Shown here piece after piece: positions 35,310-39,486 of a stretch of 64,000 nt of DNA; the stretch's first letter is position 1, and each line of letters opens with the position of its first letter. Position numbers and translations under genes: made by a program. The notes below the pieces were generated by a model. That model did not search any database, was not told where the DNA came from, and worked only from the letters and a program-made list of their open reading frames with translations. The DNA is taken from contig NZ_JAAMFM010000002.1 of NCBI RefSeq assembly GCF_013376105.1, positions 124,001 to 188,000 of the forward strand. Direction: 5' to 3'. This DNA is from Arthrobacter wenxiniae. Its GTDB lineage: Bacteria; Actinomycetota; Actinomycetes; Actinomycetales; Micrococcaceae.

Positions 35310-35558
35310 TCAGGGCCCGGTGATGCGCAGGGCAAGGAGCGGGCAGAGCTTGACGGCGTCCACGGCCGCACCCAGTTCCGCGCCGGTGAGCGGAACGTTC
35401 GACGCATCGGCCCGGGCCCGGACACGACCCGGCGCGGCGAGCGGGTAGCCCCAGTCGTCACGCGTCAGGGCCTCCGGCAGCAGCTCCGTGCACAGCCCGC
35501 GCCCGTCGCACATGGTCCAGTCGATGTGCAGCCGCGCCGCAGGCCCGGCGACGCTCAC
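35310..35558 (-). CDS. Three-cysteine ferredoxin
   Basis: 82 residues from a GTG overlapping the TGA of the NuoF-like gene. LHIDWTMCDGRGLCTELLPE and AVKLCPLLALRI give a C-x5-C ... CP pattern. The middle Cys of a normal CxxCxxC is Arg, as in the [3Fe-4S] ferredoxins that serve actinobacterial cytochromes P450. It probably carries electrons to or from the NuoF-like subunit encoded just upstream. Confidence 0.8.
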   Translation of the reverse strand: MSVAGPAARLHIDWTMCDGRGLCTELLPEALTRDDWGYPLAAPGRVRARADASNVPLTGAELGAAVDAVKLCPLLALRITGP

Positions 35559-36832
35559 AGCGCGCCGCCCGTCTCCTGGCACTGCCCGGCCAGGTGCCAG
35601 CGGACGTCGTCGGCAAACGTTTCAAGGGCGCTGCCAACCAGCTGGACCGTGCCGTCCGGGTGGTGGCAGGCCCCGCGGCCGGCCACCAGCCCGGACAGCC
35701 GCCCCACCTCGCGTACCAGTTCCGGTCCGCCGCGCCCCGCGGCCAGCCGCTCCATGGCGCCGGCGAGGGCCGGCAGTCCGAACATGCACGGACCGCATTG
35801 CCGTGCCGACTGCCCGGCCAGGTACTCCACCATCCGGGCCGTCGCCGCCAACCCGCACCGGCCACGCGCCAGGACGTGGACGACGCCGGCACCCGGCCGC
35901 ACGCTGCCGGATTCCGGGCCGCCCCCGGGGACACCTCCCCCACCCAGCACCACCCCCGACGGCCTGACCCACCGCCCGTGGTACCCGCCCACCAGGACGG
36001 CGGAGACGGCGTCGCCCGCCACCCCGGCGGACGCCAGCACGCCGTCCAGGCGCGACCCGCCGGGCACCTCGAGCACCACCTCGGACGGCACATCGCCGGT
36101 GACGGACACCAGGCGGGTGCCCGGGTCCTCCGCGGTGCCTTCCGCACGGAACCAGCCGGCCCCGTACCGGGCCACGAGGGCGATGTGCGCCCACGTTTCA
36201 ACGTTGTGGACCAGGGTGGGGCGGCCCTGGAAGCCGCCGTCGGCCAGCCGGCCGGCCACGTCCCGCGGCAGGGCCCTGCCCGTCTCCAGGAAGCTGACCA
36301 CGGCGCTGGACTGCCCCGCCACGAAGGCGTCGGGGGCCTCGAGCAGGGCAATGTGCCGCGCATCGGAACGTTCGGCGAGCGCGGCCGCCAGTGCCGGCAG
36401 CCGTGCGGCGCCGGCGTAGATGAACAGGCTGCCGGCCCCGAGCGCCTCCGCCGCCGCGAGCAGGCCGTCGATGACCAGGTGCGGGGCGTTGTGCAGGAGT
36501 GTGGCGTCCTTGAAGCTGAGCGGCTCGCCCTCCGCGCCGTTGGCGATCAGCACGGACCTGCCGGCCCGGCCCGCATACCTGGCGGGCCTGCGGGCACGGT
36601 CCACGGCGGCGAACTTGCGCCACGCCGAAAACCCCGCGCCGCCGCGCCCCGTCAGCCCCGAGGCCTCCAGTTCCTGCGCCAGCGACCAGTCCCGGCCGTG
36701 CCGCGGCACCGGCCCATAGGCCGCCAGGTGGGCTGCATGCCCGGCAGCGGCCCCGGCCGCAAAGAGCCGCGATCCGGCCGGCCGGCCGGACGGGGCGCCC
36801 GCCAGGGGCTCCGTGGCAATGGCCGCGCTCAC
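35555..36832 (-). CDS. NuoF-like flavin/iron-sulfur oxidoreductase subunit
   Basis: 425 residues from a GTG. TGRGGAGFSAWRKFAA and NGAEGEPLSFKDATLLHNAPH are the NADH/FMN-binding Rossmann-like signature of the 51-kDa (NuoF/HoxF) family. The SLBB-like domain is VVLEVPGGSRLDGVLASAG. The cluster end has SARQCGPCMFGLPAL and a further Cys in GRGACHHPDG, so C-x2-C plus one Cys rather than the usual four. It probably passes electrons between NAD(P)H, FMN and the ferredoxin. It overlaps both neighbours by four bases. Confidence 0.82.
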   Translation of the reverse strand: MSAAIATEPLAGAPSGRPAGSRLFAAGAAAGHAAHLAAYGPVPRHGRDWSLAQELEASGLTGRGGAGFSAWRKFAAVDRARRPARYAGRAGRSVLIANGAEGEPLSFKDATLLHNAPHLVIDGLLAAAEALGAGSLFIYAGAARLPALAAALAERSDARHIALLEAPDAFVAGQSSAVVSFLETGRALPRDVAGRLADGGFQGRPTLVHNVETWAHIALVARYGAGWFRAEGTAEDPGTRLVSVTGDVPSEVVLEVPGGSRLDGVLASAGVAGDAVSAVLVGGYHGRWVRPSGVVLGGGGVPGGGPESGSVRPGAGVVHVLARGRCGLAATARMVEYLAGQSARQCGPCMFGLPALAGAMERLAAGRGGPELVREVGRLSGLVAGRGACHHPDGTVQLVGSALETFADDVRWHLAGQCQETGGAL

Positions 36833-37404
36833 GGCCGGCCCCAGTCCCTGCGGGCGCCGCCACGCCGCGCGTCCGCCGTCTCGAGGAAGCCGGCGGAGAC
36901 CCGCCACGCGGCCGCTGCCAGCACCGCCACGCAAAGCACGACGGCGGCAGCCACGGCGGGCGCGCTGGTCGCGTCCGTGCCGTTCCCCACGGAGTGCGCC
37001 AGCGCCAGCGGCCACATCGCGTAGCTGAGCCAGTGCACGGCCCTAAACGTCCGCCGACCCAGCCGGTGCCGCAGCAGGCCGGTGGCCACCACTGCCGCCA
37101 TCAGGTCCAGGGCCACCGTGCCCAGGCCCTGCCAGAACGCCTTGTAGCTGCCCAGGAACGGCACCACAACGTCCACCAGGTTCACCCGTGCATAGGCATC
37201 GAGCAGCAGCGGCGCCACGTGGAACACCAGGAACACCACGGCCAAAAGGGAGATGTTGCGGTGCAGCAGCATCAGGGATACCCGGGGAAGGGCCGGCAGG
37301 GGCCGCCCGGACCGGGTGAGGATGCCCAGCAGCACGGACCCGGTCAGCAACACCATGTCCACCAGTCCGCTGACCCGGGCAAAGGCCCACAGCGCGTCAT
37401 CCAT
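36829..37404 (-). CDS. Ferric-reductase-like transmembrane heme protein
   Basis: 191 residues, five to six spans. The His pattern of the ferric-reductase-like domain is clear: MLLHRNISLLAVVFLVFHVAP holds two, and RAVHWLSYAMWPLALAHSVG two more on another helix, giving bis-His sites for b-type heme in the membrane. There is no flavin/NAD domain in this chain, so the NuoF-like protein may be its electron donor. ATG 37404 overlaps the end of apbE by eight bases. Confidence 0.83.
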   Translation of the reverse strand: MDDALWAFARVSGLVDMVLLTGSVLLGILTRSGRPLPALPRVSLMLLHRNISLLAVVFLVFHVAPLLLDAYARVNLVDVVVPFLGSYKAFWQGLGTVALDLMAAVVATGLLRHRLGRRTFRAVHWLSYAMWPLALAHSVGNGTDATSAPAVAAAVVLCVAVLAAAAWRVSAGFLETADARRGGARRDWGRP

Positions 37405-38398
37405 GGAAGCCCACCCCCACGGGTTCGGCGGCGGGCCAGCCCGACGTCGTGACGACCCGGCGGCGCTGGTCCACCAGGCGGGCACTGACAGCGGCTTCCC
37501 TCAGCCAGGGAACGGCGGCATGGCCCTTGACAATGGCGGCCGTGCTGTAGGCGTTCGCCTCCAGCGCACTGGGGGCGGCAACACTGGCACTGCGCCAGAC
37601 GTCCTCGGCCGGCAGGCCAAACCGCGGGTCCAGGATGTGGTGGCGCAGCGCGCCGGCCTGTTCCCAGCGCCGCTTGGACGTGCTGGAGGTGGCGAGTGCG
37701 TGGCCCGCCGGCAGCGAAACCTGTTGGGCGGGGTCGTCCGGCAGGTCCTGGACCAGGACCTGCCAGTGCCCGGCCGGGCAGTCAGGGGTGGAGCCGTCCG
37801 GGGCCGGGCCCGCCGTGGCGATGTCCCCGCCCAGGTTCACCAGCACGCCGCAGCCAAGTTCGACGGCGGTGCGCGCCGCGGCCATGTCCGCCGCCACGGC
37901 CTTGGCGCTGGCCCCCAGGTCCACCGTGACATCGGCCGGCACCACCAGCCGCCTTCCGTCCAGGCGGATGCGCTGCCAGCCGGGGACCCGGGGCGCGCGG
38001 GGCCGGGGGGAGCGGGCGGCCAGGCGCCCTGTCCCCGGGCCGGCGTCGTGCCTGGGGGACGGTGGCAGCGCGGCGAAGTCGGCGTCGTAGCCCAGGCTGA
38101 TGAGATCCGCGCCCAGGGTGGGGTCAACGGCGCCTGCGGTCCAGCGGGCGGCGGCCAGTGCGGATTCCATGAGGGTGGCCAGCAGCGGCGATACGGTCGC
38201 GCCGTGCACCAGCTCCCGGCGCAGCACGGCCAGTTCCGAGTCCGCGCGGAAGCGGCTGCAGGCGAGGTCGACGGCGTCGAGCACGTGGCGCACCAGGGCC
38301 GCCGCGGCGTCCGCCTGCCCGGGCTCCGTGACGACCACCGAGGCCGCCATCCCCCACACCTGCCAGGACCGCTGGCCGGCGGCGTGCCTCGCGGCCAT
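37397..38398 (-). CDS. FAD:protein FMN transferase (ApbE family)
   Basis: 333 residues. WQVWGMAASVVVTEP is the start of ApbE proteins. VDPTLGADLISLGYDADF, VDLGASAKAVAADMAA and LVNLGGDIATAG form the FAD/Mg site, and RHHILDPRFGLPA is the C-terminal metal loop. ApbE attaches FMN covalently to a Thr/Ser of extracytosolic FMN-binding domains. No DGxSGAT-type acceptor motif is visible in the products of this window, so the target is elsewhere or unrecognised. Confidence 0.85.
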   Translation of the reverse strand: MAARHAAGQRSWQVWGMAASVVVTEPGQADAAAALVRHVLDAVDLACSRFRADSELAVLRRELVHGATVSPLLATLMESALAAARWTAGAVDPTLGADLISLGYDADFAALPPSPRHDAGPGTGRLAARSPRPRAPRVPGWQRIRLDGRRLVVPADVTVDLGASAKAVAADMAAARTAVELGCGVLVNLGGDIATAGPAPDGSTPDCPAGHWQVLVQDLPDDPAQQVSLPAGHALATSSTSKRRWEQAGALRHHILDPRFGLPAEDVWRSASVAAPSALEANAYSTAAIVKGHAAVPWLREAAVSARLVDQRRRVVTTSGWPAAEPVGVGFHG

Positions 38399-38399
38399 G

Positions 38400-38687
38400 T
38401 CAGGACCCCGCCGACTGCGCGTGGCTCGACCCGCCGTTGCCGGGCAGCAGCTGCGTGCCGGATCCCGGGGAGGAACCCAGCTGCCAGCCGGACTGCGGGC
38501 CGGAGTCCGCCGAGGAGCCCGAGAACGTGTCAGGCGTGGTTTGGCTGGTGGCAGCCTTGTTTGCACTGGCCGCCGCAATGGTGCCGTACATCGCGACGCC
38601 GCCCAGCCCTGCCGCCCCCAGCGCGCCCATGGCCACCACGGAGGTGACTGTCTTGGCGATCTTCCTGCCGTCCGCTGTTGGTGCCAT
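38400..38687 (-). CDS. Small Ser/Gly-rich secreted or membrane-anchored protein
   Basis: 95 residues. The N-terminal basic segment (MAPTADGRKIAKTV) and hydrophobic helix (VVAMGALGAAGLGGVAMYGTIAAA) form a signal peptide or anchor. The rest is a Ser/Gly/Gln-rich exposed tail (SGPQSGWQLGSSPGSGTQLL). There is no CxxCH and no known cofactor motif. It ends two bases before the apbE start on the same strand and is the first gene of the redox operon. Its conserved place would make it a structural or acceptor subunit; this is inference. Confidence 0.65.
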   Translation of the reverse strand: MAPTADGRKIAKTVTSVVAMGALGAAGLGGVAMYGTIAAASANKAATSQTTPDTFSGSSADSGPQSGWQLGSSPGSGTQLLPGNGGSSHAQSAGS

Positions 38688-38834: not shown

Positions 38835-39416
38835 CTAGCCCGAACCGGATGCGGCCGGCACCAGGATGAACAGCGCCTCCACCGGCTCCGCGGAGCGGTT
38901 TTCCCAGGAATGCGGCTCGCGCCCGGGGAAGGAGAGCGTGTCCCCGGCCTTCAGCTCGTAGGATTCCTGGGTCATGATCAAGGTCAATTCGCCGCTGATG
39001 ATGTGCAGCACGTCCACGTCGCAGTCCACGGCGTACAGCTCCGATTCGCCTCGGCCGTGTGGCGCGATGGTGGCGCCGAGGATTTGCAGGCGCCGCTCCG
39101 AGCGGGCGGTGAGCAGCCGCTCCACAATGCCCTCGCCGCCGAGCGAGATCCGCGGGCCCTCGCCGCGCCGGGTGAGGTGCGTCTCCGGGACGGCAAACAG
39201 CTCGCCGATGGAGATCGACAACACCTGGCACAGGGTCACCAGGGACGCCACGCTGGGAGAGGTCAGGTCGCGCTCCACCCGGCTGAGGAATCCCTTGGTC
39301 AGTCCCGTGGCGTCGGCCACATGCTCAATGGTGAGCCGCTGGGACTGGCGGGCGGCACGGATCCGGGACCCGATGGCGACCGGTGCCAGACTTGGTTCAA
39401 CGGGCAGTGCCTTCAT
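38835..39416 (-). CDS. XRE-family regulator with cupin sensor domain
   Basis: 193 residues from the ATG with AAGGAG upstream. The helix-turn-helix (about 17-70) reads IRAARQSQRLTIEHVADATG and LTKGFLSRVERDLTSPSVAS. The C-terminal cupin (110-185) reads DVLHIISGELTLIMTQESYE and SFPGREPHSWENRSAEPVEA. Such HTH-cupin proteins (SutR/PuuR type) respond to small metabolites and often control a divergent transporter. The divergent gene is a sodium:solute symporter, with two palindromes between. Confidence 0.88.
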   Translation of the reverse strand: MKALPVEPSLAPVAIGSRIRAARQSQRLTIEHVADATGLTKGFLSRVERDLTSPSVASLVTLCQVLSISIGELFAVPETHLTRRGEGPRISLGGEGIVERLLTARSERRLQILGATIAPHGRGESELYAVDCDVDVLHIISGELTLIMTQESYELKAGDTLSFPGREPHSWENRSAEPVEALFILVPAASGSG

Positions 39417-39486
39417 CTTCACTCCTTGGATGTCCGGGCGGTGCGCCCCCACCGTGACTCTATCCGGGCTGGCCGGTCATTTTCAT

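Follow-up and report, generated by a model that had tools for sequence, protein, structure and literature searches.

A putative C-terminal flavin-attachment tag on a small membrane-anchored protein encoded within an MsrQ-like electron-transfer cluster of Arthrobacter wenxiniae

The analyzed stretch of DNA (hereafter, the window) comprises 64,000 nucleotides (nt) of Arthrobacter wenxiniae, sequence NZ_JAAMFM010000002.1, and contains, at positions 35310-38687, an operon of five genes, all on the minus strand: small protein, apbE, FRD (PF01794), nuoF-like and 3-Cys ferredoxin. Their sequence features make it likely that they encode an MsrQ-like transmembrane electron-transfer module, in which ApbE would put flavin mononucleotide (FMN) on the terminal Ser of a tethered small protein. 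The latter looks like a flexible membrane tether, with its last residue as the flavin attachment site. The features are reported below, with gene starts chosen by us from the sequence.

38400..38687, minus strand: small tether protein, 95 residues, with charged N-terminus, one hydrophobic segment, Ser/Gly-rich tail and C-terminal tag; no Pfam or NCBIfam match
38586..38648, minus strand: hydrophobic segment of the small protein, predicted membrane anchor (Kyte-Doolittle, best window 1.67; approximate limits, set by eye)
38403..38423, minus strand: C-terminal tag H-A-Q-S-A-G-S-COOH of the small protein (conserved end [S/T]-x-[G/A]-S, and motif rule from PMC12052999)
38403-38405, minus strand: codon of the last Ser of the tag, proposed FMN acceptor
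37397..38398, minus strand: predicted FMN transferase of the ApbE family, 333 residues, ATG start (PF02424, E 6e-43)
37553..37555, minus strand: Asn codon of apbE, at the Mg-binding Asp position of other ApbEs
36829..37404, minus strand: PF01794 (MsrQ-like/FRD) putative heme membrane protein, 191 residues, ATG start (Ferric_reduct, E 8e-9); His48, 62, 124 and 137 are numbered from the Met at 37404
35555..36832, minus strand: NuoF-like flavoprotein/Fe-S subunit, about 425 residues, GTG start (PF01512, Complex1_51K, 8e-26; PF10589, NADH_4Fe-4S, 5e-15)
35310..35558, minus strand: 3-Cys single-cluster ferredoxin, probable GTG start at 35558 (Fer4_15, E 2e-8)

Relatives of the cluster were collected by scanning named genomes with the ApbE alignment, and the best 80 of 94 relatives were taken as loci (L041-L120). 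Their hosts are Arthrobacter, Pseudarthrobacter, Paeniglutamicibacter, Specibacter, Curtobacterium, Leifsonia, Frondihabitans, Subtercola, Cryobacterium and others; Arthrobacter-like clusters were also found in a Sporosarcina beigongshangi record (L059) and in an Acidobacteria metagenome-assembled genome (L068), where names are probably wrong or bins mixed. An open reading frame (ORF) next to apbE, with a transmembrane-like segment and the end [ST]xGS, was picked by motif at 78 of the 80 loci; of the remaining two, L067 is masked and L068 starts within apbE. In the original prediction the small protein was singled out as candidate for flavinylation. This is supported, and the absence from homologous clusters that would have refuted it was not observed. 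The tethers measure 77-134 residues (median 103), and the tail following the hydrophobic segment is composed of Ser for 29.5%, Thr for 16.5% and Gly for 15.5%. With start codons chosen by rule, 73/78 show an N-terminal net charge of at least +2. Anchor and linker drift between relatives, the C-terminal end being constant. Examples of such ends are HAQSAGS (window), VHGRSSGS and SDATTTGS; many tags read D-A-T-T-T-G-S, corresponding to D-x-x-[ST]-G-A-[ST] with Ala replaced by Gly, the form D-x-x-[ST]-x-G-S, with Asp at -6, is seen in 22/78 relatives, and a full SGAS is found at the C-terminus in L231. The earlier view that the locus lacks a visible flavinylation motif has to be abandoned, as the very last residues of the small protein form a degenerate one.

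A larger collection of 123 non-redundant loci (from 136), which includes loci picked for ApbE likeness to the query and is not a random sample, was then considered. Same-strand candidates ending in [ST]x[GA][ST] are present at 112 of them, reduced to 111 after L243 was dropped as spurious. In all 112 loosely selected candidates the last residue is Ser, even if Thr was allowed; position -1 is Gly in 106 and Ala in 6, and position -3 is Ser in 85 and Thr in 27. The entropy at positions 0 and -1 is zero by selection and was not used as evidence. A motif-blind test was performed on transmembrane-like same-strand ORFs ending between -180 and +30 nt of apbE: 107 of the 113 loci provided with such an ORF have one ending in [ST]x[GA][ST], compared with 0/8 for controls, 22 of the 30 control ApbE loci having no such ORF. 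Among ORFs at large, this end is found in 200/12,993 (1.5%). A chance end of a Ser/Gly-rich tail was also taken into account and rejected, since shuffled tails end in the motif in only 5.1% of cases.

All together, in the 123 loci the tag is found near apbE in 111, rearranged ones included, and at a detached locus carrying the PF01794 and NuoF genes in 4; of the others, 2 are unreadable, being masked or at a contig end (L027 and L068), 2 are Cys-ended, and 4 have none. The 20 larger regions that were read are divided into 12 with the tag near apbE, 2 with the tag elsewhere, 2 with a Cys-containing end and 4 with none. In L244 the tag gene follows apbE; in L234 and L238 a single apbE is preceded by two tagged proteins that differ from each other. 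Out of 396 genomes drawn from the phylum, 181 are matched by the ApbE profile at E <= 1e-10, other ApbE types included. In the phylum set L172-L200, judged from 1.5-kb flanks and after the ORFs of L173 and L199 were dropped as spurious, 12 of 29 were accepted as tagged.

The association of the tag gene with its neighbours could also be followed where the cluster is split. At 8 Curtobacterium loci the tag gene and apbE occur without PF01794, NuoF or ferredoxin genes nearby, and PF10589 was detected in 0/8 of these genomes vs 4/4 positive controls. All 8 hold another PF01794 protein, whose gene lies within about 1.5 kb of FMN_bind in the seven genomes searched for both. At four loci (L151, L152, L242 and L243) an ApbE of the clade lacks an adjacent tag, and the NuoF locus of each genome was then read: in 4/4 the PF01794 gene is directly preceded or overlapped by the gene of a protein that contains a hydrophobic segment and ends in a tag (GHSSGS or TVSRGS), and the four stretches read gave no match to ApbE. 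The tag gene is therefore linked to each of the two gene sets, as it accompanies apbE without NuoF as well as the PF01794 and NuoF genes without apbE.

Within the genus, the NuoF-like protein was found in 16/23 genomes. The four enzyme genes show an identical order in all 15 other NuoF-positive congeners, so that the conservation of gene order, which the original prediction had proposed as a check, holds in 15/15; a small-protein ORF is located upstream of apbE in each of them, its 3' part being masked in L027. Tight coupling by overlaps of 4-8 bases, previously claimed for the whole operon, is confirmed at three junctions (8 nt for apbE/FRD; 4 nt, GTGA, for both FRD/nuoF and nuoF/ferredoxin) and not at the fourth, where small protein and apbE are separated by a gap of 1 nt. 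Among the 80 named loci, the PF01794 protein was detected in 71, NuoF in 72 and ferredoxin in 72; for the 123 loci the figures are 108, 102 and 103, respectively. The four His of the PF01794 protein are invariant in 108/108 aligned homologues. Its model shows six main helices at low confidence (predicted local distance difference test, pLDDT, 68.5), and Foldseek relates it only weakly to STEAP/NOX (best E 0.05). In the NuoF-like protein Cys325 is conserved in 99/100 sequences and Cys345, 348 and 388 in 100/100; in the ferredoxin, numbered on a 90-residue ORF, Cys25 and Cys31 are found in 103/103 and Cys80 in 101/101. To judge from conserved residues, the path would fit NADH to FMN/Fe-S to ferredoxin to two hemes, which is the scheme put forward for MsrQ-like systems, and the earlier idea of a compact module leading from NAD(P)H through the NuoF-like protein and ferredoxin to membrane heme is supported.

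The window ApbE matches solved ApbEs in profile searches (best 3pnd, E 9e-28); its AlphaFold2 model (pLDDT 89.3) is matched by Foldseek to ApbE/Ftp/FmnB, the best being T. pallidum Ftp (E 3.9e-18). The active-site His and Ser are each found in 123/123 ApbEs. At the position corresponding to Asp285 of Vibrio and Asp301 of FmnB, which binds Mg, the 123 sequences carry Asn in 113 cases, including the window, Glu in 9 and Asp in 1; the 30 control ApbEs of the phylum carry Asp in 29 cases and Glu in 1. In a tree of 183 tips, where some genomes are present twice, the Asn-type ApbEs group together in a single clade with 127 members (support 0.938), 110 of which are labelled as tagged. No signal peptide was seen, by inspection, in the window ApbE, nor in the second ApbE of this genome, located on contig C14, which has Asp at the Mg-binding position; most of the 30 controls have an N-terminal hydrophobic stretch. 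ApbE by itself does not, then, imply extracytosolic flavinylation, as had been assumed.

According to the proposed mechanism, and going by the protein families, NAD(P)H would reduce the NuoF-like protein, and electrons would pass through its Fe-S cluster to the 3-Cys ferredoxin, then to the two hemes predicted for the PF01794 protein, which would take them across the membrane. The cotranscribed ApbE would attach FMN to the terminal Ser of the small protein, whose tail, a presumably disordered arm anchored to the membrane by the N-terminal segment, could let the flavin shuttle between outer heme and an extracytosolic acceptor. Since the window ApbE has no visible export signal, modification of the Ser probably takes place prior to translocation of the tail. 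Among the genes around the cluster, none for an acceptor enzyme was found to recur, so that metal or quinone reduction, suggested earlier, is supported neither way; the recurring families correspond to genome context (dgt and dnaG, by sequence reading), sensor kinases and response regulators.

Several observations weigh against flavinylation of the terminal Ser. A cytosolic-looking ApbE and an apparently outward tail call for the assumption on timing just made. The window tag, H-A-Q-S-A-G-S, does not comply with the canonical D-x-x-[ST]-G-A-[ST]; tags in general depart from it by having Gly for Ala, with Asp at -6 in a minority. Within one genus, a Cys-containing end replaces the tag in four genomes (L245, L246, L180 and L182), and L247-L250 have no tag, their ApbEs carrying E, D, E and E. 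Most ApbEs of the set lack the Mg-binding Asp, which in Listeria FmnB binds both Mg ions, and replacement of Mg ligands by Ala in FmnB strongly lowers or abolishes activity (PMC8906456). Finally, a PF04205 (FMN_bind) protein is encoded elsewhere in 35/49 named genomes (the search covered 49 of the 80 loci). In favour of the proposal, no FMN_bind protein was found in the other 14, nor in 11/16 cluster-bearing congeners, other known substrates such as DUF2271 and DUF3570 not having been searched; the seven congeners without the cluster have none either. Also in its favour, the four enzymes encoded at the genus loci show no conserved canonical motif in the stretches extracted, some of which are truncated. 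Concerning the Mg site, either Asn suffices, or the terminal carboxylate of the substrate helps. In the latter case, a large class of natural C-terminal flavin tags in actinobacteria would be read by its own ApbE clade and, in the Asn type, the carboxylate of the terminal Ser would stand in for Asp in Mg binding (substrate-assisted flavinylation); the need for the acceptor to be the last residue would thereby be accounted for. We put this forward tentatively and with considerable doubt. Its second part is weakened by the Glu-type ApbEs, which have terminal tags as well, at 6 loci, and by one genus in which the tether accompanying an Asn-type ApbE ends differently. The Cys-flanked tether ends of that genus, such as CYTTPSGSTVCS, are those of L245, L246, L180 and L182.

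The altered Mg site could also be read in another way, with the tag as a docking peptide: ApbE would bind or cleave flavin adenine dinucleotide (FAD), or attach a group other than FMN, and the small protein would recruit ApbE to the membrane complex without being flavinylated. The presence of Asn or Glu in 122/123 ApbEs of the clade, the weight of Mg ligands in FmnB and a point mutant of E. coli ApbE which gains FAD hydrolysis (PMC4767422) are in line with it. We consider it unlikely, given that catalytic His and Ser are always kept, that the tag resembles an acceptor motif ending exactly on Ser, and that the tag gene stays with the PF01794 and NuoF genes where apbE is elsewhere, which points to more than an anchor for ApbE. 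A location of the flavin arm on the cytosolic side, carrying electrons from NuoF/ferredoxin to the inner heme, would do away with the timing problem and agrees with the lack of export signals in ApbE, the NuoF-like protein and ferredoxin; it is judged a little less likely still, as the positive N-terminus of most small proteins suggests an N-in/C-out orientation and NuoF and ferredoxin already provide a cytosolic path.

The FMN_bind proteins found elsewhere, the one of the window genome included, raise a further question, namely whether the small protein serves the structure or assembly of the heme/NuoF complex as one of its subunits, with an unlinked FMN_bind protein, such as G000:C14:26838, as flavinylated partner. 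This protein, the sole PF04205 match of the window genome, carries DTVSGGT, hence Gly at -1 before the acceptor occurs in this genome; it was set aside as a partner because its own ApbE adjoins. Considering also the congeners bearing the cluster with no FMN_bind match, and the 8 Curtobacterium genomes where the tag gene lies beside apbE in the absence of NuoF, such a role appears improbable. The last possibility, that the conserved end reflects a constraint on DNA, i.e. the ribosome-binding site of apbE, and not protein function, took its strength from the stop codon lying a few bases from the apbE start in many loci, and from GGG/GGA at -1, which could act as Shine-Dalgarno. It can be regarded as refuted as the main cause. 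Codons at -1 vary (GGG 45, GGA 35, GGC 16, GGT 10, GCG 5, GCC 1), as do those of the terminal Ser (TCC 72, TCG 26, TCA 11, AGC 3); the tag persists with the stop 145-170 nt (L069, L092, L109) or about 750-850 nt (L093, L155) from apbE, and also when its gene follows apbE (L244) or apbE is absent from the locus. Flavinylation of the terminal Ser is the reading that we prefer.

Some additional features of the window genome and of the cluster surroundings are worth reporting. The FMN_bind gene of C14 belongs to a second flavinylation locus (G000:C14:26158-27056; L001, L039), with an FRD protein having a reductase-like C-terminal part and an Asp-type ApbE. A third, short ApbE-like match (G000:C34:124020-124253; L004, L040) falls in an open frame of 114 codons, perhaps a fragment. 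An XRE-type regulator with a cupin domain is encoded upstream of the operon and co-oriented with it (window 38835-39452, minus strand), and is also found at 5/15 congener loci (L023-L026, L029). Upstream of the cluster, a sensor kinase was recognized, by sequence reading, in 17/72 examined loci and a response regulator in 13/72. A VIT1-like protein, also identified by sequence reading, is encoded at L062 and at five further named loci (6/72), recalling the link of some MsrQ-like clusters to VIT1 (PMC8238504).

No description of such a tagged tether was found in the open-access literature searched. It represents a concrete candidate substrate for actinobacterial ApbE; 670 genomes (4%) have been reported to contain ApbE and no known substrate, and less prevalent substrates are said there to remain unidentified (PMC8238504). 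If the proposal is true, a covalent redox cofactor would need no folded domain, as anchor, linker and a short terminal tag would suffice; the tether would provide the engineered flavin tag with a natural equivalent, and could offer an orthogonal tag/enzyme pair. The tag and its ApbE also offer a simple test of ApbE working without the conserved Asp.

The module itself resembles those already known. MsrQ-like systems combine a PF01794 protein with ApbE, a subset including a NuoF-like protein, and 31 MsrQ-like clusters with a NuoF-like protein were listed by Meheust et al. in 2021 (PMC8238504); the view that this type of module is poorly described can thus not be maintained. The window locus has the PF01794 gene close to apbE, with a partner on the NAD(P)H side (PF10589). 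It differs in having a tagged tether in place of the FMN_bind gene, which is typical of MsrQ-like clusters and not demanded by their definition (PMC8238504); a Pfam search over six window proteins gave no FMN-binding-domain gene in the cluster. Like the tether, the FMN_bind, DUF2271, DUF3570, Flavodoxin_4 and FMN_red substrates have genes clustered with apbE and a motif ending in Ser/Thr, and in L. lactis FMN_red the flavinylation sites likewise lie on an unstructured C-terminal extension (PMC8238504, PMC11334425). These known substrates consist of folded domains or of segments extending a folded flavoprotein, whereas the tether consists of anchor, linker and tag, with no domain found, and its acceptor would be the terminal residue. 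The window ApbE clade shares fold and catalytic His/Ser with canonical ApbE/FmnB/Ftp, and differs from them by Asn/Glu in place of the Mg-binding Asp and by the absence of a visible N-terminal signal. ApbE substrates carry the motif D-x-x-[ST]-G-A-[ST], in which replacing Asp costs little (PMC12052999). A likeness exists with the engineered flavin tags of Tong et al., for which seven residues are enough and which work best at a protein terminus (PMC12052999): both are short motifs, the former artificial, the tether being a possible natural counterpart. The cluster belongs to a type of module already described, and its natural flavin carrier, found in many actinobacteria, is probably of a new kind.

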